The notes under the pieces are model-generated. The model ran no database searches. It was not told the origin of the DNA and saw only the letters and a program-made list of their open reading frames with translations. DNA of 46,100 nucleotides, from the NCBI GenBank assembly GCA_018816555.1, contig JAHIVT010000121.1, positions 1-46,100 on the forward strand, given 5' to 3'. Positions 11,488 to 37,007 of the stretch are shown here, piece after piece. The position numbers were made by a program, and so were the translations under genes. How positions within the stretch are numbered: the stretch's first letter is position 1; each line of letters starts with the position of its first letter. The DNA is from Pseudomonadota bacterium (lineage in GTDB: Bacteria > Desulfobacterota > Desulfobulbia > Desulfobulbales > SURF-16).

Positions 11488-12694
11488 TCCGTTCCATTGC
11501 CTTGATCACGTTTTCATAGCTGTTAAAGGCGGAAAGCCTGATATAGCCCTGGCCGCATTTGCCGAAACCGGCCCCGGGCGTGCAAACCACGCCTGCCTTA
11601 TTCAGCAGCATGTCAAAAAATTCCCACGAATCACGGCCCTGGCCGTCAATCCAGATGTAGGGGGCATTGTCGCCGCCCACCGACGCAAAGCCGAGAGCGA
11701 TCATTTCTTTTTTGATAAGCGCTGCGTTGCGCAGATAATAGTCGGTCAGTTCCCTGACCTGTCGCTTTCCCGCGTCACTGTAAACGGCCGCGGCCGCCTT
11801 CTGGATCGGGTAGGAGACGCCGTTGAACTTGGTGCAGTGACGGCGGTTCCACAGGGGGTGGAGGAGTTGTTTGTTGCCGGCGCTGTCAAAGGCCGCGCAT
11901 TCCTTGGGTACCACCGTAAAGGCGCAGCGGGTGCCGGTGAAGCCCGCGGTTTTGGAAAAGCTCCTGAATTCTATGGCCACCTCCCGGGCTCCTTCCACCT
12001 CATAGATTGAGCGGGGCAGGGATTCGTCGCGGATAAAGGCCTCGTAGGCGGCATCAAAGAGGATCAGCGCCTTGTTGGTCCGGGCGTAATCAACCCAGGT
12101 TTTGAGCTGCTCCCTGGTGATGGTGGAGCCGGTGGGGTTGTTGGGGAAGCAGAGGTAGATGAGGTCCACCGGCTGCCCTGGCAGATCCGGCACAAAGTTG
12201 TTGCCCTTCACGGAATCAAGATAGCAGATGCCCTGGTAGCGGCCGTCGGCAAAAGACCCGGTGCGCCCGGCCATGACGTTGGTGTCGAGATAGACGGGAT
12301 AAACCGGGTCGGGGATGGCGATTTTCACCTCGGTGGCGAAGAGTTCCTGAATGTTGCCGGTGTCGCATTTGGCCCCGTCGCTGACAAAGATTTCATCTGC
12401 TGCGACATTCGCCCCCCGGCTGCGGAAATCATTCTCAGCAATGGCCTCCCGCAGGAAGGCATAGCCCTGTTCCGGCCCATAGCCGCGGAAGGTTGCCTCA
12501 TTGGCCATCTCGTCAGTGGCAGCATGCAGGGCCTCGACGCAGGCCGGCGGCAGGGGACGGGTCACGTCGCCTATGCCCAGTTTGATGATGTCCCTGCCGG
12601 GGTTGTTCTGCTGAAAGGCGGCCACGCGTTTGGCGATATCGGAAAACAGGTAGGAGGCCTGCAGTTTGAGATAGTTTTCATTGATGGTGATCAT
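11468..12694 (-). CDS. dapL: LL-diaminopimelate aminotransferase
   Basis: The enzyme (408 residues) is a fold-type I PLP aminotransferase that converts tetrahydrodipicolinate and glutamate directly to LL-diaminopimelate and 2-oxoglutarate for lysine and peptidoglycan synthesis. Recognisable features are the start [60 protein letters not shown], and the PLP-lysine segment [15 protein letters not shown]. The ATG at 12694 has GGGGA upstream and matches the usual family start; the frame stays open upstream but that part is low-complexity. The gene's stop lies inside the 3' end of the HD-GYP gene on the other strand. The DapL route is common in Desulfobacterota, Chlamydiae, Bacteroidetes and plants. 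Confidence 0.93.
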
Positions 12695-12897
12695 GTTTTT
12701 CCCCGAATTTTGCTTTGACTGACGAATAATGAAATGCAACCTTGATCTATAAAACAAAGTCTTTTTTCTGTCAATTGCGGTATTGGAAAACATGTATATG
12801 ATTACATATTTGTCACACCTGGCAGTGCCATGGAAGACACTGCAGTACTGTTTGTGGCTCCTGTCATAGGTTCAACTTTAGGGATGGCGGTTATTCG

Positions 12898-12974
12898 GGG
12901 GTAGGAGCGGGCCATGCCCGCGACCTGTGGCATTGCGGGCTCCCGCTATCGCGGGCATGGCCCGCTCCTACCCG
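12898..12974. repeat. Long GC-rich inverted repeat (REP-like)
   Basis: Two arms of about 26 bases (12898-12923 and 12949-12974; GTAGGAGCGGGCCATGCC and its complement) are almost perfect inverted copies around a short loop. This would form a strong hairpin. It lies between the divergent dapL and hisHF genes. Palindromes of this wording are, to my knowledge, widespread intergenic repeats. Confidence 0.75.
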
Positions 12975-13005
12975 GCGAGACTTATAGCAGCGCAAGCTGC
13001 GTCAT

Positions 13006-13080
13006 CGTCATTCCTGGCAAGCGAAGCGCGACCAGGAATCCAGTGATTTTTTTGGATGCCGGATCAAGGTCCGGCATGAC
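13006..13080. repeat. Dispersed intergenic repeat with imperfect dyads
   Basis: The segment runs from CGTCATTCCTGGC to GGTCCGGCATGAC. It contains two nested imperfect inverted repeats (CATTCCTGG/CCAGGAATC and ATGCCGGA/TCCGGCAT). I recognise this type as a common dispersed repeat of proteobacterial genomes. It adjoins the previous palindrome, so the dapL-hisHF gap holds two unrelated repeats. Confidence 0.6.
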
Positions 13081-13186
13081 TGTTAAAGAAAGTTGCAGCA
13101 AGCAAAAAAGGCAGGTATGTTTGCAGCTTTGATTTTAACCATGGGCCGGCATGCCGGCAGATTTTGTTTAAGCAAGGTATAGAGAG

Positions 13187-14776
13187 ATGATCACTTTACT
13201 TGATTACGGGGCGGGCAATGTCCGCAGTGTGCGCAATGCCATCAGGAAACTGGGTTTTGACGTGAAGGATGTGACCTGCCCGGAGGATATCCGGCAGGCG
13301 GAAAAGCTGGTCTTCCCCGGCGTGGGCAGTTTCGGCAGCGCCATGGAGCGGCTGCAGCGCATGGGCTATGTGGAGCCCCTGCTGGCCCATATCAAAGGCG
13401 GCAAGCCCTTTCTCGGCATCTGCCTGGGGCTGCAGACCCTGTATGAGGGCAGCGAGGAGACCCCCGGCGTGGCAGGGCTCGGCATCATTCCCGGCCAGAT
13501 CAAACGTTTCAGGCCCTCAAAGCTGTCCGTGCCGCAGATCGGCTGGAACGGCATCAATGTGCGCAAGGAGTCCCCCCTTTTTAAGGGCTATGACAATGAA
13601 AAGCTCTATTTTGTCCACTCCTTCAGGGCATCACTGGACGAGGCCGGCCGCGACTGGGTGCTGACCACCACCAACTACGGCGAGGAGTTTGTCAGCGCCG
13701 TCCAGAAAGGCAATGTGGTGGCCTGCCAGTTTCACCCGGAAAAAAGCGGCGAGGCCGGCCTGCTGATTCTGAAGAATTTCCTGGAGCTGGCCGACCTTGA
13801 GGCTGCCGCACCTGGCACGGTTACCGTGGCGGGCGGGGAGACCAAACTTGCCAAGCGTATTATCGCCTGCCTGGATGTGCGCAGCAATGATGCCGGCGAC
13901 CTGGTGGTGACCAAGGGCGACCAGTACGATGTGCGGCACGAGGGTGAGGTGCGCAATCTGGGCAAACCGGTGGAGCTTGCCCGCCGTTATTTCGAGGAGG
14001 GGGCGGATGAGATCACCTTTCTCAATATCACCGGTTTCCGGGATTTTCCGCTGAAGGACCAGCCCATGCTGGAGGTGCTGCAGAACACCTCGGAAAATGT
14101 CTTTGTGCCGCTGACCATCGGCGGCGGCATCCGCGAATTCACCGACACGGAAGGCCGCCACTATTCGGCCCTTGATGTGGCCTCCGAATATTTCCGCAGC
14201 GGCGCGGACAAGATCTCCATCGGCAGCGATGCGGTCTACACGGTGGAGGAGTATCTGAAGAACAGCACCAAAACCGGCAAAAGCTCCATCGAGCAGATCT
14301 CCATTGTCTACGGCGCCCAGGCAGTTGTCATCTCCATTGACCCGCGCCGGGTTTACGTGAACAGCCCGCAGGAGACCACCCATAATACCGTCAAAACCGT
14401 CTTCCCCGGACCCAATGGTGAACAGTACTGCTGGTACCAGTGCACGGTGAAAGGCGGACGGGAAGGCCGGGACGTGGATGCGGTGCAGCTGGCCCAGGTG
14501 TGCGAAACTCTGGGCGCAGGCGAGATTCTCTTAAACTGCATTGATAAGGACGGCACCAACAGCGGCTTTGATCTGGAGCTGGTTAACCAGGTGCGGAAGG
14601 CGGTCACTATCCCGGTCATTGCCTCAAGCGGGGCGGGCAGGGTAGAGCATTTCTCCGAGGTCTTTGCCGCCACCGATGTTGAGGCGGCCCTGGCAGCCGG
14701 TATCTTCCACCGGAGGGAGGTGCCCATTTCGGCGGTGAAGGAGCATATGCGGGAAAAGGGGATAGAGACGCGGTAG
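13187..14776 (+). CDS. hisHF: Fused imidazole glycerol phosphate synthase (HisH-HisF)
   Basis: This 529-residue bifunctional enzyme makes IGP and AICAR from PRFAR and glutamine in histidine synthesis. The N-terminal glutaminase (1-205) has its nucleophile at Cys79 (GICLGLQ) and the His183/Glu185 dyad (CQFHPEKSG). The C-terminal (beta/alpha)8 cyclase (about 220-529) starts AKRIIACLDVRSND, with Asp230, and continues with LTIGGGIREF, RSGADKISIGSDA, AQAVVISIDP and PVIASSGAG. The long insertions and the single chain match the eukaryotic HIS7 type, not the usual bacterial separate HisH and HisF. From residue 415 (CWYQ) the DNA is repeated three more times in the window, and the 65 bases at 14429-14493 are the likely recombination core. 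The present C-terminal tail was therefore probably delivered by a mobile element. All catalytic residues remain intact. Confidence 0.95.
   Translation: MITLLDYGAGNVRSVRNAIRKLGFDVKDVTCPEDIRQAEKLVFPGVGSFGSAMERLQRMGYVEPLLAHIKGGKPFLGICLGLQTLYEGSEETPGVAGLGIIPGQIKRFRPSKLSVPQIGWNGINVRKESPLFKGYDNEKLYFVHSFRASLDEAGRDWVLTTTNYGEEFVSAVQKGNVVACQFHPEKSGEAGLLILKNFLELADLEAAAPGTVTVAGGETKLAKRIIACLDVRSNDAGDLVVTKGDQYDVRHEGEVRNLGKPVELARRYFEEGADEITFLNITGFRDFPLKDQPMLEVLQNTSENVFVPLTIGGGIREFTDTEGRHYSALDVASEYFRSGADKISIGSDAVYTVEEYLKNSTKTGKSSIEQISIVYGAQAVVISIDPRRVYVNSPQETTHNTVKTVFPGPNGEQYCWYQCTVKGGREGRDVDAVQLAQVCETLGAGEILLNCIDKDGTNSGFDLELVNQVRKAVTIPVIASSGAGRVEHFSEVFAATDVEAALAAGIFHRREVPISAVKEHMREKGIETR
14429..14493 (+). 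other. Left attachment core inside hisHF
   Basis: These 65 bases (starting TGCTGGTACCAG) encode [21 protein letters not shown], a highly conserved part of HisF, and are identical to 33599-33663. Both flanks differ: left of the core hisHF and the second copy are unrelated, right of it they are homologous but diverged. Crossover most likely occurred within this segment. Confidence 0.75.
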
Positions 14777-14823
14777 TTGTATGCAGATTTGGTGCTTAGC
14801 GATATTTCAGCAAAAATGGAACT

Positions 14824-14930: not shown

Positions 14931-17900
14931 TCAAGATGTTAGGGATGCTGCGATAACCAACTTGACCCGCTTCCAGAAATAGCGAATTTCAAGGAGAAGA
15001 CCTGTCGAACTGGGGCTGTCACTGGAGGGCGGGTTCTTTGATGACAGGCGATTTAGATACTCCGCTTCCTTGGTTTCGTTTCCACGTATCCTCCAAAGAA
15101 AAGATGAGTGCCGAAATAATCGAAGAAGCTGTGTAGTGTCACCTCGTGACTCAAAAAGATTCCATAGTGTGGCGTGGCACTGGTCAAAGAGTGATCCAAA
15201 CCGTTGCGCATACAAATAGGAGTACGCTAATTTGAGAGTGAAAAGGTCGCTTGTTGTTAGCTTGGCTTGTGGGTCCTGCAGCCTTTCGACTGCACGCGCC
15301 TTCGCAACGACTGCTCGTGTCTTGTTATAGACACGCATATCTTTGGCCGCCAAAACGCGGTCAAGGAGTCGAATCTCTTCTGCCGGTTCGTCCATGTCAT
15401 TTGCGAGGTCGAGCGTTATCGTATCAGCAAGCGTCAGATGCCCTTCTTTCCTTGCTTGCTTTTCCAATGTGATCAGACGTTTCCTTTTATTGGCACCTTT
15501 GAGTGTTTGCCCCGCTTCAATTGCTATTGCATGAAGCCTGGCTGCAGATCCTTGGCTTGCGAATCGCTGGACTTCCCCTGCGGCCTTGACGGCCAAATCA
15601 GTATGTTCCAGTTTTTCTTCAGTAAGGGCGATGTTTAACCAAATCGAGGCCTTTTCTTTTTTTTCAAGGTACCCTTCGCCCACTTCCAGAGCGCTGTGTA
15701 AATGCCTAAGGGCCTCTTCGTGCTTACTGCTCATCCTCATTGCTATGCCAGTTAGCATGGCTAATTCACTCCATTGTTCAGGCATATCGTCACGCCCAAT
15801 CGTCTGAAGCACCCCCCCAGCTATGACCGCAAGATCTCGATATCGTTCCTCAGATCTCACGCGTCTACAAAACTGGAGTCCTAGGTTGGCGGCTTTGCGT
15901 GCTGTCAAAATATCGCCATTTTTTCTTGCATCTACGATTAAATGGTGGACCACAGCAAACTCGTTTCCAACACCTGAGCTCAAATATTCGCGATATTCGA
16001 ATGGCAATCTGCGGAGCTTAACCTTGCCTTCTCGCCAACGACGCCCGAAAAATCGGTCCACTCCTGCAAGGACGATTTCCATTCGTTCATTATCTGAAAG
16101 CATAGTCAGCACATAATGCCCAATTTGACGTGGAACTTTAAGGATCTTCGGGGTGTTCTCCTCTGATAGCCCACCTTTCCCGAAGTCAACACAAGATGTA
16201 GCATGCTTGAGTGGAATCGCGTTCAGTAATGCTAGTTCTTTCAGTTGAAGTGCATTGTCAATAAAGAACGGTTCAGAAGGAAGGTAATGTGCAAGAGTTT
16301 CTAGCGTTTCCCCGTATGGCAAGACCGAAAGAACCTTTAAGAGGCGAAGACTTCGCTTGCTCCGCTTGTCGACGGATCTCACTAAGGTGTTAACAGCGTG
16401 CACTAATGCTTGTGGAACGCTCTCTGATAATGACCCATTCTCTGCCGGGCCTTCCATCTCAGCGTCGAGAACCGACTCAAGAGATGAGACCTTGAGGGAT
16501 CGCAGCATCCGATCAAGATGCATAGGGAGTCCATCGGAGCGCTCATGAAGTTTGTCAATAATGTCTGGGTCACATAGTCCTGGAGTTGCATCTGGATGAT
16601 GCAACAGGTACGTGCGAACATCCGGCACATCCAAGGAATGTAATTCAATCAACGGAAAATCCACTTTGACAGGTGGTGTCCGCGAAACAATTACGACATG
16701 CAACTCGGGACAGTAGTCGAGTATGGCCGAAATAACTTGTTGAAGTTTGAGAAGGTTCTCTTCAGTACTAAGTGATGGATGGATCCCATCGAAGACCAGA
16801 AATGCACCAGAAAGGACGGTCACATACCCACAGAACGCTTGCATTGCCATCCCGAATTGCTGAGGGAAGAGCGCCTGAAAACTGTTTTCGTCATCCGCAT
16901 CGTCACAAAGTAGATGAAATACTTCCAACTGATTGCCCTGGTTCCGAAAGCGTTCAAGCGCCGCAGCAAGAAACTCCTCTTTACCCATACCCCAGTCGGA
17001 AGACAGCCACACTGCCCTCGTCCTACGAATTTCTAGTTCTAATTGGCTCTGTTCCTCTTGGCGTATAGCGCGGTGGTGAGCTGTTGAGGACAATGACAAT
17101 CTAGGACAGGACGCGAGACGAGTCCTTGATGTTTTCAAATCGGGACTTTTGTCAAGCAGGTGGAGGTCATCACTTGACGTCTCCTCTGGAGGCTCCACGT
17201 CCGCGTCCTGCTTGTTTTGCACATCTAACTTGTCAAAATCTTCAGACAAGTCATCCTCCTCTGTCATAGGTTCAAACGCCACTATGACACTATTGTCTTC
17301 GTTGAGCTGAAAAGAATGGTCAGGGCAAAAAATCAGCCCACCATGGCGACCTCTTATTACAGTGCGTGGCCAAAATGTCTCAATGGAGTTAACTCCGTCG
17401 AATAGAAACCGCCCAGCCATATAGCCATGTGTACGCTTTTTTGGTGTTTCACCAACCCATTCCTCTAAACCGAATAGTGAGGGACCTTGGCGAAACCTCC
17501 GTGGATGACCACCCGCTTCACTCATTTCCATTGTCTCAGGGTCGTGTTGATGGCCATAGAGATGGCTAAGAAAACGACCAGGAGGATATATTTCTTGTCG
17601 ATAATGATCTAATGAGTCTGGAGCAAGCCAGGTTGGAGGTTGATGCGTAAGTAGTACACTTGCCGTTCGTTTATTGAGCCACGCACTGGGGTTGGCACTG
17701 CAAACAGCATTCAACTGAGAAACATGTAGTGCGAGTTTTCCCTTGAAATCACCCTCGGTCAATTGGAGAAAGGATGAATTGAGACCAACTATTCCAAGCT
17801 CTACATTGGACTTCTGAAAGATCGCGCTAAAGTCACCAGGGAGAATGCCTTCTTTACGAGGCAATGTCGGGACCTGCAGTTGTGACAAGCATGTAGAATA

Positions 17901-18320
17901 CTCATGGAAGTACTCCTTGATAGCCTGCCGTTCTTCACAAGAATCGTCGTGCCAAAACGTTCTTCTCAACTCTTCATCCGACCACCATAGTTGCGTCAGA
18001 GTCCGTAACACGGCTGATCCCTTTGATGGTCTAATCAAGTCATGATTTCCGGGAACGGCACACATAAAGGGAGAGCGGCCAGTCGCAGACAACACTTTCC
18101 AAAGACTCTCGATCTCTTTATTGAGAAGGTCATATTCAGAACGCTTACCGGCCTGTACAAAATCTCCAGTAAAAAATACAAGGTCCCATCCACCAATCTG
18201 ATCTGTCATTTTCGCAAGGTCTTTGAAGAGGTCGTGCTTAACTTTCGGCCAAAGCCACGAATGATCGTCGAGACCAAGATGCAGGTCAGTCAGGAGAATC
18301 CAGTTAATTGATTCGCTCAT
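14931..18320 (-). CDS. Metallophosphoesterase-STAND NTPase-TPR protein, putative phage defence
   Basis: This 1129-residue protein joins three parts. The N-terminal calcineurin-like phosphoesterase (about 1-330) has all the metal motifs: TDLHLG, FTGDFVQAG, VPGNHDL, LLTHQP and LYGHQHD. The centre (about 410-690) looks like a STAND-type NTPase with a divergent P-loop (SSDWGMGKEEF near 440; Glu replaces the usual Ser/Thr), a Walker B-like LVFDGIH, a sensor-like VVIVSRTPP and a GxP-type motif (RSDGLPMHL). The C-terminal 400 residues are helical repeats resembling TPRs (EEALRHLHSALEVGEGYL). This order of enzyme, switch and repeat sensor is that of Avs-like defence proteins, where the repeats detect a phage protein and the N-terminal enzyme attacks the cell or phage. 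The ATG at 18320 follows GAGAGAAG. Function is inferred; the domains are seen. Confidence 0.8.
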   Translation of the reverse strand: MSESINWILLTDLHLGLDDHSWLWPKVKHDLFKDLAKMTDQIGGWDLVFFTGDFVQAGKRSEYDLLNKEIESLWKVLSATGRSPFMCAVPGNHDLIRPSKGSAVLRTLTQLWWSDEELRRTFWHDDSCEERQAIKEYFHEYSTCLSQLQVPTLPRKEGILPGDFSAIFQKSNVELGIVGLNSSFLQLTEGDFKGKLALHVSQLNAVCSANPSAWLNKRTASVLLTHQPPTWLAPDSLDHYRQEIYPPGRFLSHLYGHQHDPETMEMSEAGGHPRRFRQGPSLFGLEEWVGETPKKRTHGYMAGRFLFDGVNSIETFWPRTVIRGRHGGLIFCPDHSFQLNEDNSVIVAFEPMTEEDDLSEDFDKLDVQNKQDADVEPPEETSSDDLHLLDKSPDLKTSRTRLASCPRLSLSSTAHHRAIRQEEQSQLELEIRRTRAVWLSSDWGMGKEEFLAAALERFRNQGNQLEVFHLLCDDADDENSFQALFPQQFGMAMQAFCGYVTVLSGAFLVFDGIHPSLSTEENLLKLQQVISAILDYCPELHVVIVSRTPPVKVDFPLIELHSLDVPDVRTYLLHHPDATPGLCDPDIIDKLHERSDGLPMHLDRMLRSLKVSSLESVLDAEMEGPAENGSLSESVPQALVHAVNTLVRSVDKRSKRSLRLLKVLSVLPYGETLETLAHYLPSEPFFIDNALQLKELALLNAIPLKHATSCVDFGKGGLSEENTPKILKVPRQIGHYVLTMLSDNERMEIVLAGVDRFFGRRWREGKVKLRRLPFEYREYLSSGVGNEFAVVHHLIVDARKNGDILTARKAANLGLQFCRRVRSEERYRDLAVIAGGVLQTIGRDDMPEQWSELAMLTGIAMRMSSKHEEALRHLHSALEVGEGYLEKKEKASIWLNIALTEEKLEHTDLAVKAAGEVQRFASQGSAARLHAIAIEAGQTLKGANKRKRLITLEKQARKEGHLTLADTITLDLANDMDEPAEEIRLLDRVLAAKDMRVYNKTRAVVAKARAVERLQDPQAKLTTSDLFTLKLAYSYLYAQRFGSLFDQCHATLWNLFESRGDTTQLLRLFRHSSFLWRIRGNETKEAEYLNRLSSKNPPSSDSPSSTGLLLEIRYFWKRVKLVIAASLTS

Positions 18321-18632: not shown

Positions 18633-19298
18633 TTACAATAAAAATGAGTAATCACTTGAGAAGGACTTCCCATTAATTCCGTCTGTCCCTGGAACCTGCA
18701 CAAATAGACCACTACCTCTATTAACGACATTAAATTTGAGTTGCCCTTTCGACTGACTCATTTCGTTGCCGTATTTTTCAAAAAATTTCTCTGGCAGAGG
18801 GATGTCGATAACCTCTCCATTTTCTCGCTGACACAAAAGTACAGCATGATCAAAGCCTCCAGCAGGTAAACCAAGAAACCACCTGTTGGGTTGTCTTTCT
18901 GTCGCGACAGCAAGGCCGACCCGCTTACCCGACCTAGTGCGAAAGATTGTCTTGCCTTTAATTAATTGAAGATTGATCCCTTCTTCTTTGCGTTTGCTCA
19001 AGAACTCATTGCGAATTTTCTCCCCAAGTGCCCTTGAGGACATAATTTGCGATGACCGCGATTCGTCAACTGGGGCGGCAACAACTCCTTGAGTTTTTGG
19101 TGGTTGAATTGTTGGGTTGCCACTTCTCAATGCTTCGAGTTCTGAGACAATTTGGCTGTGGCGAGAAATTAGATTTTTTATTTTTTCTAATTTTTCACTT
19201 TCGGCTAACACGAGATCCGTTTTTCCATCGCTCGCAGCCTTTGAAATATTTGATAATATTTTATTTTTTTCGTTCTCAAGCTCTGATAATGTGTCCAT
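18633..19298 (-). CDS. Unknown protein with N-terminal coiled coil
   Basis: I do not recognise the family of this 221-residue protein. The first 55 residues are a charged heptad-like helix (LENEKNKILSNISKAASD, EKLEKIKNLISRHSQIVSEL). A proline-rich linker (NPTIQPPKTQG) leads to a compact C-terminal region (about 85-221) with FRTRSGKRVGLAVATE, NRWFLGLPAGGFDHAVLLC and LPEKFFEKYGNEM. There is no membrane segment or obvious catalytic motif; the C-terminal part could be a ligand- or DNA-binding beta domain. It lies between the STAND protein and the PD-(D/E)XK-like protein on the same strand, with 36 bases to the latter, so it may be part of one defence unit. AAGG precedes the ATG. Confidence 0.7.
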   Translation of the reverse strand: MDTLSELENEKNKILSNISKAASDGKTDLVLAESEKLEKIKNLISRHSQIVSELEALRSGNPTIQPPKTQGVVAAPVDESRSSQIMSSRALGEKIRNEFLSKRKEEGINLQLIKGKTIFRTRSGKRVGLAVATERQPNRWFLGLPAGGFDHAVLLCQRENGEVIDIPLPEKFFEKYGNEMSQSKGQLKFNVVNRGSGLFVQVPGTDGINGKSFSSDYSFLL

Positions 19299-19334: not shown

Positions 19335-19871
19335 TTAGATGGTAGCTGAGATTAAGTGTAGTGTCAAGTGTAATTTTCTTGCGATGCTGTCCTTGCACTT
19401 AAATTTCACGCACGCCGCTTGGAGACACCAAAAAACATTTGAGATTGAGCAGTTTTTCACTCGTCCTGGAATTTTCTGTATTTGATGTTCCCATTCTGGG
19501 AGATCTGGTACTGCCAAGCCGTAGGTTACGTCATTTTCTGTAGTGTTCATCATGAGAACGATTTGACCAATAGCAGAGTACATTGCCTGCTCTTTTTGTT
19601 TTGATGACTTGCCTTCTACCTCGATCAGAAACACACCTTTTTCCGGATGTGCTGCATAAATATCCACTCGACCATGTTCTTTGTGTGAGCCGAAATCCAC
19701 TCCCAAGAACTTCAGGGCTAACTCCGCAGCCAAAACTTTTTCTTTTTTGTCTGGTTTGTGTTGCGGGCCTTTTGCTCTTTCCATTGCATCGATGTCCACC
19801 AGAACCTCCCATCCATCGCTCGGTGAAAAAAGATGCTTCACGAGTTGGTGTTTTACTTCAAGCTGATACAT
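19335..19871 (-). CDS. PD-(D/E)XK nuclease-like protein
   Basis: The 178-residue product (start MYQLEVKHQLVKHLF) shows the core of the PD-(D/E)XK fold: a helix with conserved Glu (VLAAELALKFLG), then GRVDIYA with the metal-binding Asp, FLIEVEGKSS with ExK, and a Gln-bearing helix (YSAIGQIVLMM). This suggests a DNA- or RNA-cleaving or binding protein, though such folds can be inactive. The C-terminal 60 residues are unassigned. The frame stays open to 19967, but that extension is the 3' end of the group II intron, whose boundary is at 19890/19891, 19 bases upstream of this ATG. In the spliced transcript the frame continues into the upstream exon, possibly from a GTG (residues VIPCSYLRCPTKDM), so the true start is uncertain. 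Confidence 0.68.
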   Translation of the reverse strand: MYQLEVKHQLVKHLFSPSDGWEVLVDIDAMERAKGPQHKPDKKEKVLAAELALKFLGVDFGSHKEHGRVDIYAAHPEKGVFLIEVEGKSSKQKEQAMYSAIGQIVLMMNTTENDVTYGLAVPDLPEWEHQIQKIPGRVKNCSISNVFWCLQAACVKFKCKDSIARKLHLTLHLISATI

Positions 19872-19927
19872 GTCTTTTGTTGGGCACCGGGTAGGGCAGA
19901 GGCCTTGCAGCCTCTTTCCCCCCCTAA

Positions 19928-19961
19928 GAACCGTGCGTGATAGTTTCCCATCACACGGCTC
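19928..19961 (-). ncRNA. Group II intron domain V
   Basis: The 34-nt hairpin starts GAGCCGTGTGAT, has a GAAA-type loop and ends ATCACGCACGGTTC, with the usual bulge on the 3' side. This is the catalytic core helix, and its length and sequence match the classical domain V exactly. A domain VI hairpin (GAGGC/GCCTC) and the intron end follow. Confidence 0.9.
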
Positions 19962-20009
19962 AAGCATCTTAAAGGCAGCCCTTAGGGGGCGGCCCGACTG
20001 TTTGACTTC

Positions 20010-21614
20010 CTATGTAAACATTGCCCGGAATTCTCTTGCCGAGAGTGCCGGTAGCAGTTTACTCTCCTTATTGTTTCTGCGCTCCCACAGGTACTTGGAA
20101 AACTCAGGCAAATAAGGATTCGCCGCCGCTTTGATTTTGATATGTCTTCTGATGCCGATTGAGCAGATGCGTATGACCTGGTAGACTTTTGTTAAGCCTT
20201 TTGCGGTCTTGGTTCTGACAGCGAAGATATGTTTCCGATCACCGGCTGTCCAGTATTTAGCAAACAGCCACTTCTTGGATTTCCTTGGGTGTCGGTTCCT
20301 GAGCATGCGCCACAGCTGTTCAAACACATATGTATCGATGCGGCTGAAGGCCTCCGATGATACCACATGGCGGTGGTAATTTGCCCAACCTCGAAGCGTT
20401 TGGTTCAATTTCTTGATTAAGGCTTCCATCGGCGCGCTGACGTGTTTTCTGATTAACGTTCCTACTTTTTCTCTGAGGGCGAGGACTCCCTCGGTGGCCG
20501 GTTTGATGTGCAGTTTCCTACCGTGCTTCCGAAAAGTTTGCCCGAGAAACGTAAATCCGTCTCTGATATGCGTGATCAAGGTCTTTTCTTTCGAGAGAGT
20601 GAGACCACGTACGATAAGAAACTCTTCCACAGCCGGTTTGATTTTCTTTTCCAGCAGGGTTTTCGATTTTCCCGTGATAATGAAATCATCGGCATAGCGA
20701 ATGAAGTTAATACGATTTCGACGGGGGACTGCACAGCGAACGACCTCTTCCAATCCGTCGAGTACCATATTAGCCAAGGTTGGACTGATTATTCCACCTT
20801 GAGGAGTTCCTTTGCGAGAAGGATAGGTGATGCCGTTTTCAACATATCCCGCCGTAAGCCACTTGCGAAGAATTTCTTTATCCATTGGAATGTTATTGAG
20901 CATCCATTCCATTGAAATATTGTCGAAGCATCCGGCGATGTCCGCCTCCAATATCCAGGTAGCCGAATTAGGCTTGTTCAAGGCATTAAACCCGGCCTGT
21001 ATGGCATCGGCACAGGAGCGGCATTCCCGAAAGCCGTAGGAATTTCCATCGGCTGTGGTTTCCGCCACCGGCGCCAGTGCGAGTTTGTACAGTGCCTGCA
21101 TTGCCCTGTCTAAAAGTGTTGGTATTGATAACGGGCGTTTCTTGCCGTTCTTCTTCGGAATATAAATACGTCTGAGCGGTTGCGGCCTGTAACCACGTCG
21201 GCGCAGGCTGAAAACAGCCCGCCATTTGGCTCGGGCGCCTTTCCACAGGACGCCGTCAATGCCGGGGGTTTTCTTCCCCTTGTTGGAAGTGACTCGTTTC
21301 ACAGCCAGTTGCTTGGCGTAGAACGAGTTGGTTAGAAGATGCTGTAAAGTGTTGACCTTACCCCATCTCTTTTCCTGAACAGCCTTTGCGATACGCATCT
21401 GCAGCCTTCTAACATGCTTTTCCGCGGCTTTCCAATCAATGAAATGCCATGGTTTAGCTTCATCGACAGGCGCCCCAGCCAAAGCGGCCGTCTCTAGCTT
21501 TCCCGTCTTCGAAGGTTCTCCGGACTCTCCCGCAATAAGACACCAGTTGAACGTCAGCACGCCATTCACATTTTGCCAGCCGGCTCCAGGTTTTAGCGTT
21601 GAGTCATTTTTCAT
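20010..21614 (-). CDS. ltrA: Group II intron reverse transcriptase/maturase (LtrA type)
   Basis: This 534-residue protein has the full intron RT layout: an RT0-like N-terminus (FIDWKAAEKHVRRLQMRI), fingers and palm motifs (GKKTPGIDGVLW, KKNGKKRPLSIPTLLDRA, ADIAGCFDNI, GTPQGGIISPTLAN), the catalytic box IRYADDFIITG, domain X (ALIKKLNQTLRGWANYHR) and a C-terminal segment with HIKIKAAANPYLPEF, which resembles the tail of the HNH-type endonuclease domain; the paired cysteines of complete HNH domains are missing. It copies spliced intron RNA into DNA and helps splicing. The catalytic residues are intact, so the intron may still be active. Confidence 0.93.
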   Translation of the reverse strand: MKNDSTLKPGAGWQNVNGVLTFNWCLIAGESGEPSKTGKLETAALAGAPVDEAKPWHFIDWKAAEKHVRRLQMRIAKAVQEKRWGKVNTLQHLLTNSFYAKQLAVKRVTSNKGKKTPGIDGVLWKGARAKWRAVFSLRRRGYRPQPLRRIYIPKKNGKKRPLSIPTLLDRAMQALYKLALAPVAETTADGNSYGFRECRSCADAIQAGFNALNKPNSATWILEADIAGCFDNISMEWMLNNIPMDKEILRKWLTAGYVENGITYPSRKGTPQGGIISPTLANMVLDGLEEVVRCAVPRRNRINFIRYADDFIITGKSKTLLEKKIKPAVEEFLIVRGLTLSKEKTLITHIRDGFTFLGQTFRKHGRKLHIKPATEGVLALREKVGTLIRKHVSAPMEALIKKLNQTLRGWANYHRHVVSSEAFSRIDTYVFEQLWRMLRNRHPRKSKKWLFAKYWTAGDRKHIFAVRTKTAKGLTKVYQVIRICSIGIRRHIKIKAAANPYLPEFSKYLWERRNNKESKLLPALSAREFRAMFT

Positions 21615-22133
21615 ACTCTATCCTTCGGGTTTCCCGATGGCATTATTTGCTTCTTTCAACCTCTCTAACCCGCCACTCCAACAGCACGCCTTGCGGTAAT
21701 GCCTGCCCTGCATTGCACAGGGCGGAGGGACGGGGTTTCCACGTTCCACGTCTTTACCTTAACGGACAACTTAGGCGGGACTTGGACGCCGGAAGGAAAT
21801 CGGGTCCCGTGCGGGCACGTTAGTCTCCCGCAACCTCTCCAACACGCGTAACCACTGAGAAACACGTCATAGACCTGCTAAACCCGGTAGGTCCGTCGCT
21901 CGCCTGACGGCGCGTAAAGTCCTTTGCCTGCTCTCGCCATATTGTCCCATCCTAGCCCTTAACCGGGCGGGATTCCCGGAGGGGAGTCCACCTCGCGGCT
22001 TCTTCCCGATTCGGTACATTGTCAGGAGGGCTTCGCACCCAGTCATCAGCGCAACGGTAGCACGCCTCCCTAGGATACCGGCGGGGACACGCCGGGTGAT
22101 TGCGTGCACAGATAACTACACGGGATCACATAT

Positions 22134-22242: not shown

Positions 22243-23241
22243 TCATCCAGTGAAAAATATTTCTTTTAGTTCTCTCCATTCATCTGTCTCGTTGCTATTA
22301 GAAGGGAAAAGCTCGTGAAAGTTGGCGCTAATATAGCCGGTCAAACCCTGAAAAATCTTTTGTCCATTATCAGAATCCGCTTTGATTAGCCTTTCCTTAA
22401 AGGTATTTGGGGCTGTCGGGGAAACTATGTATAATTTAAGGCCGTGACTTTTTATAGCCTTTGCAATTATTTCGTTAATATGGATATCCCGGAAACCGTA
22501 ACCTATAACTAAAAGTTTTCTCCGGGCTCGGAATAATTCTTCTTTGAAAACATCGAAATACCACAAGAGAAGAGGTTCATTCGCTATTTGTGTTATTTTG
22601 TTTCTGCCAATAACCATCTTGCTGGAGCCATCGGAACTTTTCCAACCAAAAGAGCCGTGCAATTTTATATAATAAGTATTGGTTATATTAAATATTTTTT
22701 CTTTGTTAGAATCGATTTTCGCCTTGGTGGGTACAATCTTGAAATTATTGTTGTCCAGTGGCTGCTTAGATTCGTTAGAGTTTGGGGGGAAAAATCTTTC
22801 CATCATGGGGGTAATTATTGGAGGTGTAATTCCGGAAATAAGCCTTTCGATGAACAGGTCTTGATTGAGCGTGAAAAAGAAAGTTTTTTGGTTATTTTGG
22901 GATAACAAATCAATAATCTTTTTTGCCCCATTTAGAATGTTTAACTTAGATTCATCTGTCGTAGAGATATAATCTTGGCCAATTTTGTCAAGTTTTCTAT
23001 ATGCTTGGAGCATAGCAGAGTTGATAGCATCTTTTACATCATTTGAATAATCTCCGGCAAAAATTTTGTGATAAACTGACTCGTAGTCAAAATCATTTCG
23101 TAAGATATCTACCAAATCAGGACTTTTTTGCACCTCACTACAATTAAATATCTTTTCCCACATCTCCGTTGCAAGAAAACCCCCAAAATTTTTCGTAAAT
23201 CCAGCGCCAGTTAGCAAAATATTATTAGATATTCCTGGTGC
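22243..23241 (-). CDS. SIR2-like NAD-cleaving domain protein, putative defence effector
   Basis: The 332-residue protein belongs to the SIR2-like group found in many phage-defence systems, where it depletes NAD+. Visible motifs are ILLTGAGFTKNFGG (nucleotide-binding glycine motif), FFTLNQDLFIER (the TxNxD site), IKLHGSFGW (the catalytic-type His) and LLVIGYGFRDIHINEII (the second nucleotide segment). It is a single-domain protein with no fused sensor, so it may work with a partner or alone. The ATG at 23241 is chosen because the SIR2 fold starts at once (MAPGISNNILLTG); the ribosome site is weak. Its promoter and operator are almost the same as those of the 325-aa gene at 26047. NAD cleavage is inferred from family. 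Confidence 0.8.
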   Translation of the reverse strand, partial: APGISNNILLTGAGFTKNFGGFLATEMWEKIFNCSEVQKSPDLVDILRNDFDYESVYHKIFAGDYSNDVKDAINSAMLQAYRKLDKIGQDYISTTDESKLNILNGAKKIIDLLSQNNQKTFFFTLNQDLFIERLISGITPPIITPMMERFFPPNSNESKQPLDNNNFKIVPTKAKIDSNKEKIFNITNTYYIKLHGSFGWKSSDGSSKMVIGRNKITQIANEPLLLWYFDVFKEELFRARRKLLVIGYGFRDIHINEIIAKAIKSHGLKLYIVSPTAPNTFKERLIKADSDNGQKIFQGLTGYISANFHELFPSNSNETDEWRELKEIFFTG

Positions 23242-23284
23242 CATATTTTCTAAATCCAATGAGTATAGGGGGGGATAGAGGACT

Positions 23285-23381
23285 AACAAATAATTATCAA
23301 GTTTCTTGATATCTACTCCAGCCTAACATTCTTGACAACAAAATATAGGGCGTTCTACCTATTTTTACCCGACATCATTCA
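23285..23381 (-). promoter_or_regulatory. Promoter-operator P, copy 1 (SIR2-like gene)
   Basis: On the minus strand there is a -35 box TTGTCA (23333-23338), a 17-base spacer and a -10 box TAGATA (23310-23315). A perfect inverted repeat ATCAAG-AAA-CTTGAT (23296-23310) abuts the -10 box, where a bound repressor would block initiation. The whole segment of about 97 bases is repeated at 26073-26170 with the same box spacing. Confidence 0.75.
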
Positions 23382-26047: not shown

Positions 26048-26072
26048 GAGTTCCGGTCTTTTTAATCCAACC

Positions 26073-29848: not shown

Positions 29849-31921
29849 ATGCAAGATCAAAAAGTAGTAACCAAAACAACATCATCAGTCCCCCCAGAAA
29901 CAAACAATTCAGACGCCTTTTCTTTGTGGCAGCGCTACATTAAAGATTGCCTTGGTGGTGCCATGTACTGGTTAGGGTATGGATTCAAAGTAATCCCGCT
30001 TGCATCCGGCACCAAGATACCCGCAGTTAAGTGGGACCCATGGCTTGACGGTCTTGATCCACAGAAGGTTCATGACCATTGGGCCGGAAACCCATCTCAC
30101 GATGTTGGCTTCATTGTTGGCGAGAGCATCATTGTCTTTGATGCCGACAGCCCAGAATCCTTAGCAGCTCTTTTAGAGATTGAAGCTCGCGTTGGCATCA
30201 CTCCAAAGTTAGTGGTCAAAACGAAAAAAGGGGAACATCACTACTTCCGCCGAGCTGCTGGTACCACAGCAAAGTCCGATTCTCACAGCACAGAGATGTT
30301 CCCAGACCGCTTGGATATCAAAACCGGTCGGTCATTGGTGGTATTACCTCCGAGTACGGGGAAATCCATCATGTCACTTACAGCGGAAAACGCCGGTGCA
30401 TTATCGGAAGCCACACAAGAGTTTATCGATGCCGTCTATCAACACAACGGCAGGAATGCGCCTTCACAACCAAGAGAGGTAACGGCAAGTGCTTTTACCC
30501 AAGAGGGAAAAAGTGATGCATCATTAAAGAAGATAGAAAAGTTGCTGAATAGCATTGATCCTGATTGTGGTTATGATGACTGGCTGCATTGTATTATGGC
30601 GGTCCACCACGAAACTAACGGTAGTGATGAAGGACTGGATATTGTTGACGCTTGGAGCCGCAAAGGCCAGAAGTACAAGGACCGTAAAGACATAGAAACA
30701 AAATGGCATTCACTCAAACCAGATGTTGCCACCCCCTATACCATAGGGACGCTGATCAAGATGGCCAGGGCTGCTGGTGCTGACGTCGATGCCATTATGA
30801 ATAACGGAGACGAAGAGTTTGAGGTTTGTGAATATGAGATAGTCGATCCGAGTGCCGTAGCACCCGAGAATGTAACAAAAAGAGAGAACCCTCTGGACAG
30901 GTATACCTTGCTTGGAATGTCACATGAAATCGAAAAACAGGTTATGGAGGAAGCCTATGTTTTAGATGAAATTGCCCTAATGGGTCAATCCACTGTGATT
31001 TATGCTGCCCCTAACACGGGTAAGACGCTTCTCTGTTTGCACTTGCTTATGAAAAGCATCAAGCAAACAGGACTTGATCCGACCAAGGTCTACTACGTCA
31101 ACGTTGATGATACGGCTACTGGTCTGCTGGAAAAGCTTCATATCGCGGAGGAGTATGGTTTTAACATGTTGGCTGAGGGGTACCGTAATTTCAAGGCCAA
31201 AGAGTTTTTGCTCCTTATCACGGACATGATTGAGACTGGTAAAGCCCGTGGTGTGATCATTTTCTTAGATACACTGAAGAAGTTTACAGACCTGATGAAA
31301 AAGGATGCATGTACACGCTTCACGGAAGTGATTCGTACATTTGTCATGCAAGGTGGGACTGTCATTGCTTTGGCTCACACCAATAAAAATCCTGGTCGTG
31401 ATGGCAGGAGAGTTTATGCTGGAACCTCTGACATTGTGGACGATTTTGACTGCGCCTACATTTTGGACACCATTTTAGAGGATGCCGACAAAAAACAGAA
31501 AACGGTCGAGTTCACTAACATGAAAAAACGAGGGAACGTTGCTTTGTCAGTGTCTTACAGTTACGACCTGGAACGAAAAATTAAATATAACGAGCTGTTG
31601 TTGTCAGTGCAGAAAGTTGATGAGATGCATCTTTTAGCACACAAACAAGCCGCTGAAATAAAATCTGATGCTGATGTGATTACAGCCATTGAAACCTACA
31701 TCAAGGGGGGTATCAACACCAAGATGAAGCTGGCAGCGGAATCTGCTGAACATGCCAATGTCAGCCAAAAACAAGCTCTTAGGATTATTGAGAAGTACAC
31801 CGGAGACGACCCGAAAATCCATCGGTGGTCTTTTGAGGTGCGTGAGCGTGGTGCCAAGGCTTACAAGGTGCTGGAGCGTCCCTCAGGGCACCCGGCCGCC
31901 CCGGCCATCACCACTCCCTAG
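29849..31921 (+). CDS. Bifunctional primase-polymerase / RecA-like helicase
   Basis: This 690-residue replication protein starts with a prim-pol domain (about 30-200): YGFKVIPLASGTKIPAVKWD, VGFIVGESIIVFDADS with the DxD metal site, HHYFRRAAG, and DIKTGRSLVVLPPS. A PriCT-like domain follows (about 225-300, IDPDCGYDDWLHCIMAVHH). The C-terminal half is a RepA/DnaB-like ATPase with Walker A AAPNTGKTLL near residue 387, VYYVNVDD, Walker B GVIIFLDTL and an arginine-bearing AHTNKNPGRDGRR. It would prime and unwind the element for autonomous replication after excision. Such proteins are typical of satellite-like integrative elements. The ribosome site is AAAAGGAGTTATTC. Confidence 0.85.
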   Translation: MQDQKVVTKTTSSVPPETNNSDAFSLWQRYIKDCLGGAMYWLGYGFKVIPLASGTKIPAVKWDPWLDGLDPQKVHDHWAGNPSHDVGFIVGESIIVFDADSPESLAALLEIEARVGITPKLVVKTKKGEHHYFRRAAGTTAKSDSHSTEMFPDRLDIKTGRSLVVLPPSTGKSIMSLTAENAGALSEATQEFIDAVYQHNGRNAPSQPREVTASAFTQEGKSDASLKKIEKLLNSIDPDCGYDDWLHCIMAVHHETNGSDEGLDIVDAWSRKGQKYKDRKDIETKWHSLKPDVATPYTIGTLIKMARAAGADVDAIMNNGDEEFEVCEYEIVDPSAVAPENVTKRENPLDRYTLLGMSHEIEKQVMEEAYVLDEIALMGQSTVIYAAPNTGKTLLCLHLLMKSIKQTGLDPTKVYYVNVDDTATGLLEKLHIAEEYGFNMLAEGYRNFKAKEFLLLITDMIETGKARGVIIFLDTLKKFTDLMKKDACTRFTEVIRTFVMQGGTVIALAHTNKNPGRDGRRVYAGTSDIVDDFDCAYILDTILEDADKKQKTVEFTNMKKRGNVALSVSYSYDLERKIKYNELLLSVQKVDEMHLLAHKQAAEIKSDADVITAIETYIKGGINTKMKLAAESAEHANVSQKQALRIIEKYTGDDPKIHRWSFEVRERGAKAYKVLERPSGHPAAPAITTP

Positions 31922-32174: not shown

Positions 32175-33377
32175 ATGCCTATTGTTTCTTTATCAGCTGA
32201 ATTTGTACGTAACATTGTTTGCCCTGAAGGTAAGGCGAAGGAAAATTATTATGACACCGCAATTACCGGCTTTATTCTGGAGGTCAGGCAAACTGGCGGT
32301 AAAACCTATGCTCTCCGGTATAAGGACCAGCACGGCCGTCAATGCCAACATAAAATTGGGGACAGCAAGTCCATAAGTTTTGATAAAGCTAAAAATGCTG
32401 CCCAGATTTTACGGTCCCGAGTTGTATTGGGTGAAGACCCTTCTGCAGAGAAGCGCACTAAACGTATGGTGCCTACTCTCGAAGAGTTTTGCAGGGATCG
32501 GTATATGCCTTTTGCCAAAAGCTATAAACGCTCCTGGCTGTCAGATGAGAGTCTATTGAAAAACCATATCTTGCCCCGGTTCGGCTCATACCATATGGAC
32601 AAAATCAGCCAACCGGACGTAATCGAGTTTCAGAATTCCCTGAAAACCAAAGGTTATTCTCTCGGTATGGCTAATCGCCCTTTGGTCCTGCTGAAATATA
32701 TTTTCAATGTGGCATTGAAATGGAAGATACCTGGTATTGAGTTGAACCCGGCTGCCGAGGTGAAGCTGTTTGAGGCCAACAATGCCAGGGAAAGATATCT
32801 TACGGCTGAGGAATGCCAGCGATTGATGGAAGCCCTTGAGCACAATGAAAACACTCAGCTGAAATACATCGTGCCTTTGCTTTTACTGACTGGTGCACGT
32901 AAGCGCGAATTGCTTGATGCCTGTTGGGAGCATTTTGATATAGATAGGCGTACTTGGAGAATTCCGATGTCAAAGACAGGAAAGTCGCGTCATGTACCGC
33001 TTTCATCTGCTGTTTTGTCGATATTGGCTGAGTTGCCACGATGGGAGGGGTGTCCCTATCTCGTGCCAAACCCCAAGACGCTCAAGCCCTACAATCAGAT
33101 CCATTTCAGTTGGAATAAAGCAAGAATAGCTGCTGGCCTACCTGATGTCAGAATGCATGACCTGCGCCATAGCATGGCCTCCAACATGGTGAACTCCGGG
33201 CGCTCGCTGTATGAAGTTGCCAAGGTTCTAGGCCATAGCCAGCTAAAGACGACTCAGCGGTATGCACATCTCTCGCAGGAGACGCTGCTGGCGGCAGTCG
33301 ATGCAGCTGCCAATGCCACAGGAACGAACTGGGGGCAAGCGCATACTGACAACGCGAAGGGAGAGACAACTCGTTGA
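32175..33377 (+). CDS. Tyrosine recombinase (integrase) of the hisHF element
   Basis: This 400-residue integrase has an N-terminal arm-binding domain (about 20-95, YYDTAITGFILEVRQTGGKT), a core-binding SAM-like domain (about 105-195) and the catalytic domain (about 215-380). The active-site set is complete: Arg242 in TGARKRELL, a Lys-bearing beta hairpin (SKTGKSRHVPLS), His328/Arg331 in HDLRHSMAS, His in VLGHSQLKT and the nucleophile Tyr363 in TTQRYAHLS. It is next to the right attachment core, so it is the enzyme expected to cut within the hisF coding sequence. It should work without other element proteins apart from a host bending factor and perhaps an excisionase, which I do not see. Confidence 0.92.
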   Translation: MPIVSLSAEFVRNIVCPEGKAKENYYDTAITGFILEVRQTGGKTYALRYKDQHGRQCQHKIGDSKSISFDKAKNAAQILRSRVVLGEDPSAEKRTKRMVPTLEEFCRDRYMPFAKSYKRSWLSDESLLKNHILPRFGSYHMDKISQPDVIEFQNSLKTKGYSLGMANRPLVLLKYIFNVALKWKIPGIELNPAAEVKLFEANNARERYLTAEECQRLMEALEHNENTQLKYIVPLLLLTGARKRELLDACWEHFDIDRRTWRIPMSKTGKSRHVPLSSAVLSILAELPRWEGCPYLVPNPKTLKPYNQIHFSWNKARIAAGLPDVRMHDLRHSMASNMVNSGRSLYEVAKVLGHSQLKTTQRYAHLSQETLLAAVDAAANATGTNWGQAHTDNAKGETTR

Positions 33378-33598: not shown

Positions 33599-33663
33599 TG
33601 CTGGTACCAGTGCACGGTGAAAGGCGGACGGGAAGGCCGGGACGTGGATGCGGTGCAGCTGGC
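33599..33663 (+). other. Right attachment core of the 19-kb element
   Basis: This is the exact second copy of the 65-bp core, 221 bases after the integrase stop. The unrelated DNA immediately to its left is element end sequence. By chance or design an ATG (33593) lies two codons upstream in frame, giving a short open frame through the displaced tail. Confidence 0.75.
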
Positions 33664-33946
33664 ACAAACCTGCGAAACCCTGGGTGCGGGCGAGATTCTC
33701 TTAAACTGCATTGACAAGGACGGCACCAACTCCGGCTTTGATCTGGAGCTGGTCAACCAGGTGCGCCGGGCGGTCTCCATCCCGGTCATCGCCTCAAGCG
33801 GCGCGGGCAAGGTGGAGCACTTCTCCGAGGTCTTTGCCGCCACCGATGTGGAGGCTGCCCTGGCGGCCGGTATCTTTCACCGGAGGGAGGTGCCCATTGC
33901 CGCGGTGAAAGAGCACATGCGGGATGAGGGGATTGAGACGCGGTAG
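33599..33946 (+). pseudogene. Displaced hisF 3' end, copy 1
   Basis: This fragment encodes the last 115 residues of HisF (from [10 protein letters not shown] to GIETR and a stop), in frame without breaks. Compared with the tail of the intact gene it has seven amino-acid differences (for example LAQT for LAQV and RDEGIETR for REKGIETR) and many silent changes after the 65-bp core. The lack of stop codons and the mostly silent changes show that it was under selection until recently. It is probably the tail hisHF had before the 19-kb element arrived. Confidence 0.88.
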
Positions 33947-34000
33947 TAATTTATTGATTAAAGATTTTGCGAAATGCCCTTTTTCACAAAATGGAGGGTA

Positions 34001-35702: not shown

Positions 35703-35794
35703 CGGCCCTGGCAGCTGGCATCTTCCATCGTCGGGAGGTGCCCATTGCGGCGGTGAAGGAGCACATGCGGGAAAAGGGGATTGAGACGCGGTAA
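35703..35794 (+). pseudogene. Short hisF tail remnant
   Basis: These bases encode the last 29 residues of HisF ([20 protein letters not shown] and MREKGIETR, then TAA) in frame. The upstream boundary is abrupt and the attachment core is missing, so the 5' part was deleted. It is a further sign of repeated integration at hisF. Confidence 0.8.
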
Positions 35795-36243: not shown

Positions 36244-36253
36244 GATTCCGCTC

Positions 36254-36579: not shown

Positions 36580-36659
36580 GGTGTTTGTGGTTTGTGGATG
36601 AGGCCAGACACTTATTATTCCCTTTGAAATAATCAACTTTTCTTCCGGCTTGCCGGAAC

Positions 36660-37007
36660 TGCTGGTACCAGTGCACGGTCAAGGGTGGCCGGGAAGGCCG
36701 GGACGTGGATGCGGTGCAGCTGGCACAAACCTGCGAAACCCTGGGCGCTGGCGAGATTCTCTTAAACTGCATTGACAAGGACGGCACCAACTCCGGCTTT
36801 GATCTGGAGCTGGTCAATCAGGTGCGCAAGGCGGTCACTATCCCGGTCATCGCCTCAAGCGGCGCGGGCAAGGTTGAGCACTTCTCCGAGGTCTTTGCCG
36901 CCACCGATGTCGAGGCGGCCCTGGCTGCCGGTATCTTTCACCGGAGGGAGGTGCCTATTTCCGCAGTGAAGGAGCACATGCGGGAAAAGGGGATTGAGAC
37001 CCGCTAA
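36660..37007 (+). pseudogene. Displaced hisF 3' end, copy 2
   Basis: This second full-length tail encodes the last 115 HisF residues in frame, ending GIETR and TAA. Its protein differs from the tail of the intact gene at only two positions (LAQT, AGKVEH), but the DNA has many silent differences. It starts with the same 20 bases as the other tails and then differs by several third-position changes within the core. It is the copy furthest from hisHF and may be the oldest or original one. Confidence 0.86.

Follow-up and report, generated by a model that had tools for sequence, protein, structure and literature searches.

What might a bacterial protein do that joins a phosphoesterase to an NLR-like switch and a repeat sensor? 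The question is raised by a gene on contig JAHIVT010000121.1 of a Desulfobulbales genome (assembly GCA_018816555.1), of which we analysed the first 46,100 nucleotides, here called the window. A sequence-only reading had placed the gene at 14931-18320, without a strand, and had proposed a metallophosphoesterase (MPE)-STAND-TPR protein, possibly a new Avs-like defence protein. The coordinates are right, and the gene lies on the minus strand. We consider it likely that its product, encoded by a single gene, is NLR-like and defends against phage by abortive infection, with a phosphodiesterase as effector and a switch that is atypical. This reading is preferred because the MPE is homologous to that of the validated anti-phage protein DS-8, because relatives carry a SIR2 head on the same STAND-TPR part (hereafter the chassis), and because of the defence genes beside some relatives, the mobile element that carries the gene, and its patchy spread.

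Domain layout of the protein

The open frame ends with the stop at 14931-14933 and can begin at a GTG at 18356 (1141 aa) or an ATG at 18320 (1129 aa), of which the ATG agrees with the N-termini of relatives. The longest open reading frame (ORF) in 200 mononucleotide shuffles of the gene segment was 186 aa, as against 1129 aa for the real one. In a Pfam scan of the 1129-aa protein, the single match above cut-off was the N-terminal Metallophos domain (PF00149, residues 9-261, E 6.2e-10, 40.3 bits against a curated cut-off of 21.5); TPR_12 gave a weak, sub-threshold match (E 0.0045). The remaining layout is seen in a full-length AlphaFold2 model built on six sequences (mean predicted local distance difference test score (pLDDT) 66, predicted template modelling score (pTM) 0.60), in which the block pLDDT values are 69-89 for the nucleotide-binding part (residues 401-600) and 73-94 for the repeats (791-1090).

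The top match of the full model in a Foldseek search of the PDB is 6mfv, a STAND protein with a TPR sensor (E 1.5e-12), and the next is Apaf-1 (1.1e-6). The STAND part was also aligned with VIA-align, which gave Apaf-1 (Z 20.7, residues 406-914), 6mfv (Z 18.9, 402-1101) and MalT (8bob, Z 18.0, 404-845, root-mean-square deviation (rmsd) 4.2 over 346 aligned residues), at 9-14% sequence identity; these are among the matches listed, which TPR structures filled, so that families outside them are not thereby excluded. The three proteins resemble the window protein in fold and in the order of switch and repeat sensor, and differ in having other effectors or none. The model thus supports a STAND fold for residues 406-760, whose presence in a predicted structure the sequence-only reading had set as a check. 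Residues 784-1128 are modelled as a helical-repeat superhelix with TPR structures as its matches, in keeping with the sensor region that had been proposed. The order of N-terminal effector, central STAND and C-terminal repeat sensor, as in Avs proteins, follows from Pfam and the predicted structure together.

Among six fused MPE proteins the mean pairwise identity is 37% for the MPE, 31% for the nucleotide-binding part and 37% for the C-terminal half of the TPR region; the N-terminal half of the TPR region is the most variable folded part (26%). A search of solved structures with the single window sequence gave no match, and the chassis profile found just designed TPR proteins and weak, chance-level entries. 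Matches to Cas6e/Cse3 at about residues 1035-1103 (E 0.004-0.06) are short and occur in one of eight members, and were taken as chance, as was a match to the Cbp1 adhesin (E 0.003-0.0055).

Two heads on one chassis

A tblastn search of plasmids matched 14 records. One, from Rhizobium Kim5, holds a full-length MPE-STAND-TPR protein (28.5% identity over 95%), and a Pseudomonas HR96 plasmid has an MPE-only piece, which represents a two-gene version of the MPE and chassis. The other 12 records, from Enterobacterales and Vibrio, match the window protein just from residue 392 onward. In most of these copies SIR2 replaces the MPE according to the annotation, either fused or in the preceding gene; the frame read for the Pantoea copy lacks a head, and one Klebsiella copy is a fragment. 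An exact-pattern scan of 84,980 species genomes confirmed seven loci out of 58 candidates, a lower bound. Five are of the MPE type: a Spartobacteria metagenome-assembled genome (MAG; 38%, best segment), a Deltaproteobacteria MAG (36%), Desulfosarcina alkanivorans (33%), Rhizobium sophoriradicis (28%) and Bradyrhizobium canariense (27%). The remaining two, Vibrio jasicida and Buttiauxella, are of the SIR2 type. By record names, the MPE relatives span four phyla.

SIR2 is an NAD-depleting head in known defence proteins. Pfam SIR2_2 was above cut-off in all eight SIR2-type heads scanned, split relatives included, and two further heads (L007 and L027) are assigned by annotation and alignment. The three fused SIR2 rows of alignment A1 contain the motifs TTNFD and HLHG.

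The chassis tree has 18 rows, namely seven MPE rows (with the window protein), ten SIR2 rows and the unlabelled Pantoea row. Four plasmid matches were left out: NZ_CP129220 and NZ_CP047590 (sequence not retrieved), NZ_CP118937 (the fragment L030) and NZ_CP021126 (L003). There are two near-identical pairs, L004/L027 and L003/L025, and L025 alone of the latter is among the rows. The MPE and SIR2 rows each lie on one side of a single branch (support 99/97), and because of this split a single head exchange would be enough to explain the tree. The fused or split state, by comparison, needs at least four changes. Long branches lead to the Pseudomonas and Vibrio jasicida rows.

The spread of the family is patchy. 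Full-length matches occur in one of 395 genomes of the phylum and in one of 97 genomes, in both cases the genome of the window itself, and the protein is found in none of five same-genus genomes. Nine other genomes of the phylum passed E 1e-5 at model positions 32-217 only, and were taken to hold generic P-loop ATPases. A close-relative search of genome contigs with the single window protein confirmed none of five candidates, and E. coli genomes searched with the Citrobacter SIR2-chassis gene gave none.

This distribution bears on a different explanation, in which the protein is a MalT-like signal transducer whose phosphoesterase turns over a second messenger in normal physiology, with no role in defence. 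In its favour, the STAND part has MalT as one of its best structural matches, and phosphodiesterases of the Rv0805 type match the MPE (Z 20.8). We nevertheless find this explanation quite unlikely, given that the Pfam scan found no DNA-binding or messenger-synthase domain, that the gene is patchily distributed, found on plasmids and in an integrative element, and missing from the same-genus genomes, and that the sister chassis carries SIR2.

Relation to DS-8 and other known systems

DS-8 (MPE-NACHT; Science 2026, PMC13092281) came from DefensePredictor and is a validated anti-phage protein, whose activity requires the catalytic residues of the MPE and a residue of the NACHT domain. The two proteins share a plan, in that a single chain combines an N-terminal SMPDL3A-like metallophosphatase with a STAND-class (in DS-8, NACHT) NTPase. 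The NCBIfam model for DS-8 (NF053861, DS8_antiphage) matches the window protein at residues 10-269 alone (E 5e-13, 47.7 bits against a cut-off of 790), so the window protein is not a full-length DS-8 member; the DS-9 model (NF053862) also matches its MPE (5.8e-11).

Two DS-8 gene pieces also occur in this genome, one on contig C114 (model positions 1-608, 561 bits) and one on C4 (607-993, 308 bits), both below the cut-off of 790. The first stops 137 bases short of the end of its contig and soon meets a stop codon, and the second starts 143 bases into its contig. If the two belong to a single gene, an insert or the assembly may have split it. A Fic gene precedes the first piece and an Mrr_cat nuclease gene follows the second (both by Pfam).

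Aligned with the first DS-8 piece by hhalign, the MPE family gave E 5.6e-7 (probability 92%) and the chassis a probability of 0.4%; plain BLASTP of the window protein against this piece was not significant (best E 0.042). The homology ends at about residue 270 of the window protein, and the DS-8 piece has a standard P-loop (GESQVGKT), which the window protein lacks. From these alignments it would therefore appear that this one genome carries traces of two STAND chassis that are unrelated to each other and bear related MPE heads.

Other known systems are alike in plan. Avs5 (AVAST type 5, PMC12931631) has an effector, a STAND domain and a TPR-type sensor, with a SIR2 head as in the sister clade described here; it differs in its Walker A sequence (GPAGSGKT, the Gly and Lys of which are needed for immunity), where the window protein has a degenerate P-loop, and in its head, which in the window protein is an MPE. 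The TIR-STAND-TPR proteins of P4-like satellites (PMC9122126) likewise combine a central STAND and a C-terminal TPR region with exchanged N-terminal effectors (TIR, SIR2, nucleases). The available part of that paper names no MPE as a head, and the likeness to the window protein considered here is one of plan. The iSTAND proteins of MoxR-vWA ternary systems (PMC7159879) also have an N-terminal effector and a STAND domain with lost catalysis, within a predicted conflict system. They differ in that no MoxR or vWA gene was found among 16 window proteins scanned with Pfam, and that relatives of the window protein look like single-gene or two-gene units.

The resemblance to Avs proteins stands as to domain order. 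As to membership of an Avs family, no STAND or Avs-type model of NCBIfam or PADLOC matched eight chassis members at E <= 10 (the Avs content of these libraries is unverified). The claim of novelty needs similar division. The DS-8 plan and the TIR/SIR2-STAND-TPR plan with swapped effectors were already published, and conflict proteins centred on an NTPase and bearing a calcineurin head were among earlier predictions (PMC8195603). Within the reach of our searches, the new elements are the chassis, which is distinct from that of DS-8, the MPE/SIR2 pair upon it, and the atypical P-loop; a literature search of partial coverage gave no recognised description of this chassis.

The metallophosphoesterase head

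The phosphoesterase metal motifs are intact, as the sequence-only reading had stated. The window MPE has DxH, GD, GNHD, H and GHxH, which we take to be the complete di-metal motif set of calcineurin-like phosphoesterases, at 8/8 positions, and the metal-site residues D12, H14, D53, N92, H93, H226, H257 and H259 are identical in all seven aligned MPE-type proteins (six fused and one split, the window protein included). The isolated MPE (residues 1-360) gave a model with pLDDT 82 and pTM 0.87. Its top structural match is 9a6c chain B, an integrative YydD-YydB model (Z 31.0). Among solved structures the top match is SMPDL3A (5ebb, Z 21.6, rmsd 3.6, 284 aligned, 14% identity), followed by acid sphingomyelinase, purple acid phosphatase (21.2) and Rv0805. 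On the model we lean towards a nucleotide-type phosphodiesterase; among solved structures the fold likeness ranks SMPDL3A first, but fold similarity does not fix the substrate.

An alternative for the effector step alone, compatible with an anti-phage role, is that the MPE is a DNA or RNA nuclease of the SbcD/Mre11 type and that nucleic-acid cleavage is the toxic step. At E <= 0.01 the MPE profile matches seven solved sequences, six of which go by the name of SbcD, Mre11 or exonuclease (the seventh is LMO2642; the best match has E 7e-6 over profile positions 4-97), and the PADLOC effector profile PDLC00736 'Endonuclease' matches relatives. In the structural comparison, Mre11 (Z at most 17.5) and SbcD (at most 16.4) rank below SMPDL3A and purple acid phosphatase, and we regard a nuclease as somewhat unlikely.

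Two further MPE genes were observed. In a genome of the same order, a 951-aa MPE-containing frame (L002, G082) matches the window protein at residues 2-280 only. On Klebsiella plasmid L032 (5995-10163), a related MPE gene lies beside a gene annotated GASH; this is a GTPase-associated system with an MPE effector, of the kind described in PMC7159879.

An atypical STAND switch

The divergent P-loop (GMGKEE) noticed in the sequence-only reading is part of SDWGMGKEE at residues 441-449, which does not fit the Walker A pattern GxxxxGK[ST]. Two other motifs are found in the switch, the Walker B-like FLVFD and the GLPL-type DGLPMHL. The P-loop was tallied in 16 of the 18 rows, since the frames of L031 and L028 begin after it. 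The lysine is retained in ten of the 16, and GK[ST] in two, Enterobacter and Klebsiella, which are close relatives of one another. Among the MPE rows, the nearest four (the window protein, Spartobacteria, the Deltaproteobacteria MAG and Desulfosarcina) share the conserved loop SDWG[LM]GK[EI], within which DWG[LM]GK does not vary. None of the seven MPE rows retains the Walker A S/T, and three lack the lysine as well; ATP hydrolysis by the window-type switch is therefore probably weak or absent, and the switch is perhaps an atypical, hydrolysis-independent one.

The loss of the Walker A S/T would also fit a gene in decay, with a STAND switch that is ceasing to work. To this we give almost no credence, because the window frame has no stop codon, the four nearest rows all keep DWG[LM]GK, and the MPE site is invariant in seven of seven proteins.

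STAND domains with lost catalysis (iSTAND) are known in predicted conflict systems (PMC7159879), and P-loop-degenerate NLRs exist in plants (PMC3478704). A broader proposal, which we put forward tentatively and hold to be rather doubtful, is that the chassis defines an NLR-like family over several bacterial phyla, missed by the libraries searched, in which STAND works without nucleotide hydrolysis, and in some members without nucleotide binding. It would then be a pure ligand-gated scaffold whose head, a phosphodiesterase or else an NADase, is either part of the same chain or a subunit of its own, in parallel with the degenerate-P-loop NLRs of plants.

Genomic setting of the gene and its relatives

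The gene lies at the left end of a 19.2-kb, mostly GC-poorer element downstream of hisHF (Table 1), and its GC content at third codon positions is 0.45, compared with 0.77 for hisHF. The intact hisHF (13187-14776) is followed by three further copies of its 3' end, about 9-10% diverged, and the four copies delimit one 19.2-kb unit and two units of 1-2 kb (14429-37007), the hallmark of tandem, site-specific integration at hisHF. An IS4/5-type transposase is also present in the 19.2-kb element. An empty site is seen in the same-genus genome G001, where L062 aligns at 4500-867 with window 11137-14774 (90%) and at 956-76 with window 35703-36587 (91.5%). Because hisHF there continues directly into the sequence starting at window 35703, window 14777-35793 is missing in G001. 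In the same-genus genome G004 the 19-kb unit is missing, and a gap of about 1.3 kb separates hisHF from the downstream sequence (window 35882-36610); the first 90-130 bases alone of this gap resemble the window (the starts of the first and second units). A hisHF gene was found in 17 of 21 genomes, that of the window included (E <= 1e-100).

Table 1. Coordinates of the gene, its domains and the surrounding element in the window
Feature	Coordinates	Strand	Basis
Whole MPE-STAND-TPR gene, 1129 aa	14931..18320	minus	ORF, Pfam, model
N-terminal calcineurin-like metallophosphoesterase, residues 1-345	17286..18320	minus	PF00149, isolated model
Variable linker, residues 346-405	17106..17285	minus	15% mean pairwise identity, mostly low pLDDT
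STAND switch, residues 406-760 (nucleotide-binding fold, then helical and winged-helix parts; predicted)	16041..17105	minus	Structural alignment
Atypical P-loop SDWGMGKE, residues 441-448, no S/T after K	16977..17000	minus	Family table
Walker B-like FLVFD, residues 507-511	16788..16802	minus	Acid kept in 16/18 chassis rows
TPR superhelix, putative sensor, residues 784-1095	15036..15971	minus	Model, TPR structural matches
3' end of intact hisHF, left attachment-site (att)-like repeat	14429..14777	plus	Repeat comparison
Diverged second hisHF 3'-end copy, right att-like repeat of 19.2-kb element	33599..33947	plus	90.5% over 349 bp
Third hisHF 3'-end copy	35703..35793	plus	91% over 91 bp
Fourth hisHF 3'-end copy	36656..37007	plus	91% over 343 bp
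Tyrosine integrase near right repeat	32175..33377	plus	PF00589 5.1e-30
Prim-Pol / PriCT_2 / AAA replication protein of element	29849..31921	plus	Pfam
Separate SIR2-domain gene in element, GC 36%	22243..23289	minus	PF13289 1.3e-11; best PADLOC Aga_SIR2 1.4e-13
Group II intron with maturase (20010-21614), mobile cargo	19886..22096	minus	RF02012, RF00029, TIGR04416

Several genes near the MPE gene and along the array were noted. ORFs 18633-19298 and 19335-19967, upstream on the same strand, have no Pfam match above threshold; the latter overlaps the 3' end of the group II intron, so its true start is probably later, and by eye its VDIY...LIEVEGK stretch resembles a PD-(D/E)xK nuclease core. A 100-bp sequence is found at 23282-23381, upstream of the SIR2 gene, and at 26070-26170, upstream of an unassigned 335-aa gene (86% alike). 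It has 12 matches in the genome, these two included, and one more downstream of hisHF in G011, and may be a shared upstream element or a repeat resembling a miniature inverted-repeat transposable element. The small third unit holds an HI1420-type addiction-module antidote gene (35938-36243). At 37178-39283 lies a P-loop ATPase with a MarR-type winged helix (Sll1717-family 2.8e-10, DS41_1 anti-phage 9.7e-5, both sub-cut-off).

The sequence-only reading had asked whether homologues occur only in housekeeping contexts; they occur in mobile or, for some, defence settings. A Ppl-like gene adjoins the Buttiauxella relative (L027, PADLOC 2.5e-35), and at the matching place on the Citrobacter plasmid (L004) there is a gene annotated TrlF, as there is nearby on a Klebsiella variicola plasmid. 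An ApeA-type HEPN protein is found at Klebsiella L033 (PADLOC 5.8e-30; Pfam ApeA_NTD1 3.8e-23, HEPN_Apea), and an annotated CBASS operon about 2.3 kb downstream at Proteus L009. A tyrosine integrase lies about 40 bp downstream at Pseudomonas L005, a phage-type integrase 1.1 kb from the Desulfosarcina relative, and VapBC beside Enterobacter L006; the other neighbourhoods contain transposases or nothing notable.

Carriage on plasmids and on an integrative element with its integrase would equally suit a module that stabilises mobile elements or serves in their competition (addiction, or anti-plasmid/anti-transfer activity), and some other defence proteins act on mobile DNA. Against this stand the Ppl, ApeA and CBASS genes that adjoin relatives, the anti-phage activity of DS-8, which shares the MPE, and the lack of any recognised antitoxin adjoining it (the ORFs closest upstream of the MPE-STAND gene have no Pfam assignment). 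We judge such a module to be very unlikely.

Several observations weigh against an anti-phage role or the mechanism proposed for it. No match was found in 50,697 phage records, and scans of viral contigs with two alignments confirmed 0/16 and 0/38 candidates. The known-defence neighbours are all in the SIR2 branch, their frequencies stand without a computed null, and five relatives (L021, L022, L024, L025 and L026) have no obvious known defence neighbour in ORF lists inspected by eye. For the MPE branch, support for defence consists of the element, the separate SIR2 gene within it and the homology to DS-8. The full-length model is patchy for the helical and winged-helix part (pLDDT 37-80, residues 601-780) and models the MPE poorly, the good MPE model being the isolated one. 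Finally, the MPE rows (GK[ST] in 0/7, lysine in 4/7) run against a standard ATP-driven STAND switch.

Proposed mechanism and implications

The anti-phage role of the window protein, its trigger, its assembly and its substrate are what we infer, supposing by analogy that it works like Avs and DS-8. At rest, the TPR superhelix and the winged helix would keep the STAND core closed and the phosphoesterase idle. During infection, a phage protein, or some other infection signal, would bind the TPR region; the STAND core would then open and the proteins assemble, so that the N-terminal phosphoesterase domains are brought together and activated. The active MPE would cleave a nucleotide-type phosphodiester, in an essential nucleotide or a messenger, and the infected cell would stop growing.

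If this is true, MPE heads have been fitted to at least two unrelated bacterial NLR-like chassis, that of DS-8 and that of the window type, which gives two settings in which to look for what DS-8-type enzymes cleave. The loss of Walker A would make it possible to test sharply whether ATP is always required in STAND immunity. The MPE/SIR2 pair found in nature, present partly as two genes, would be a ready system in which to study how far heads and switches are interchangeable.

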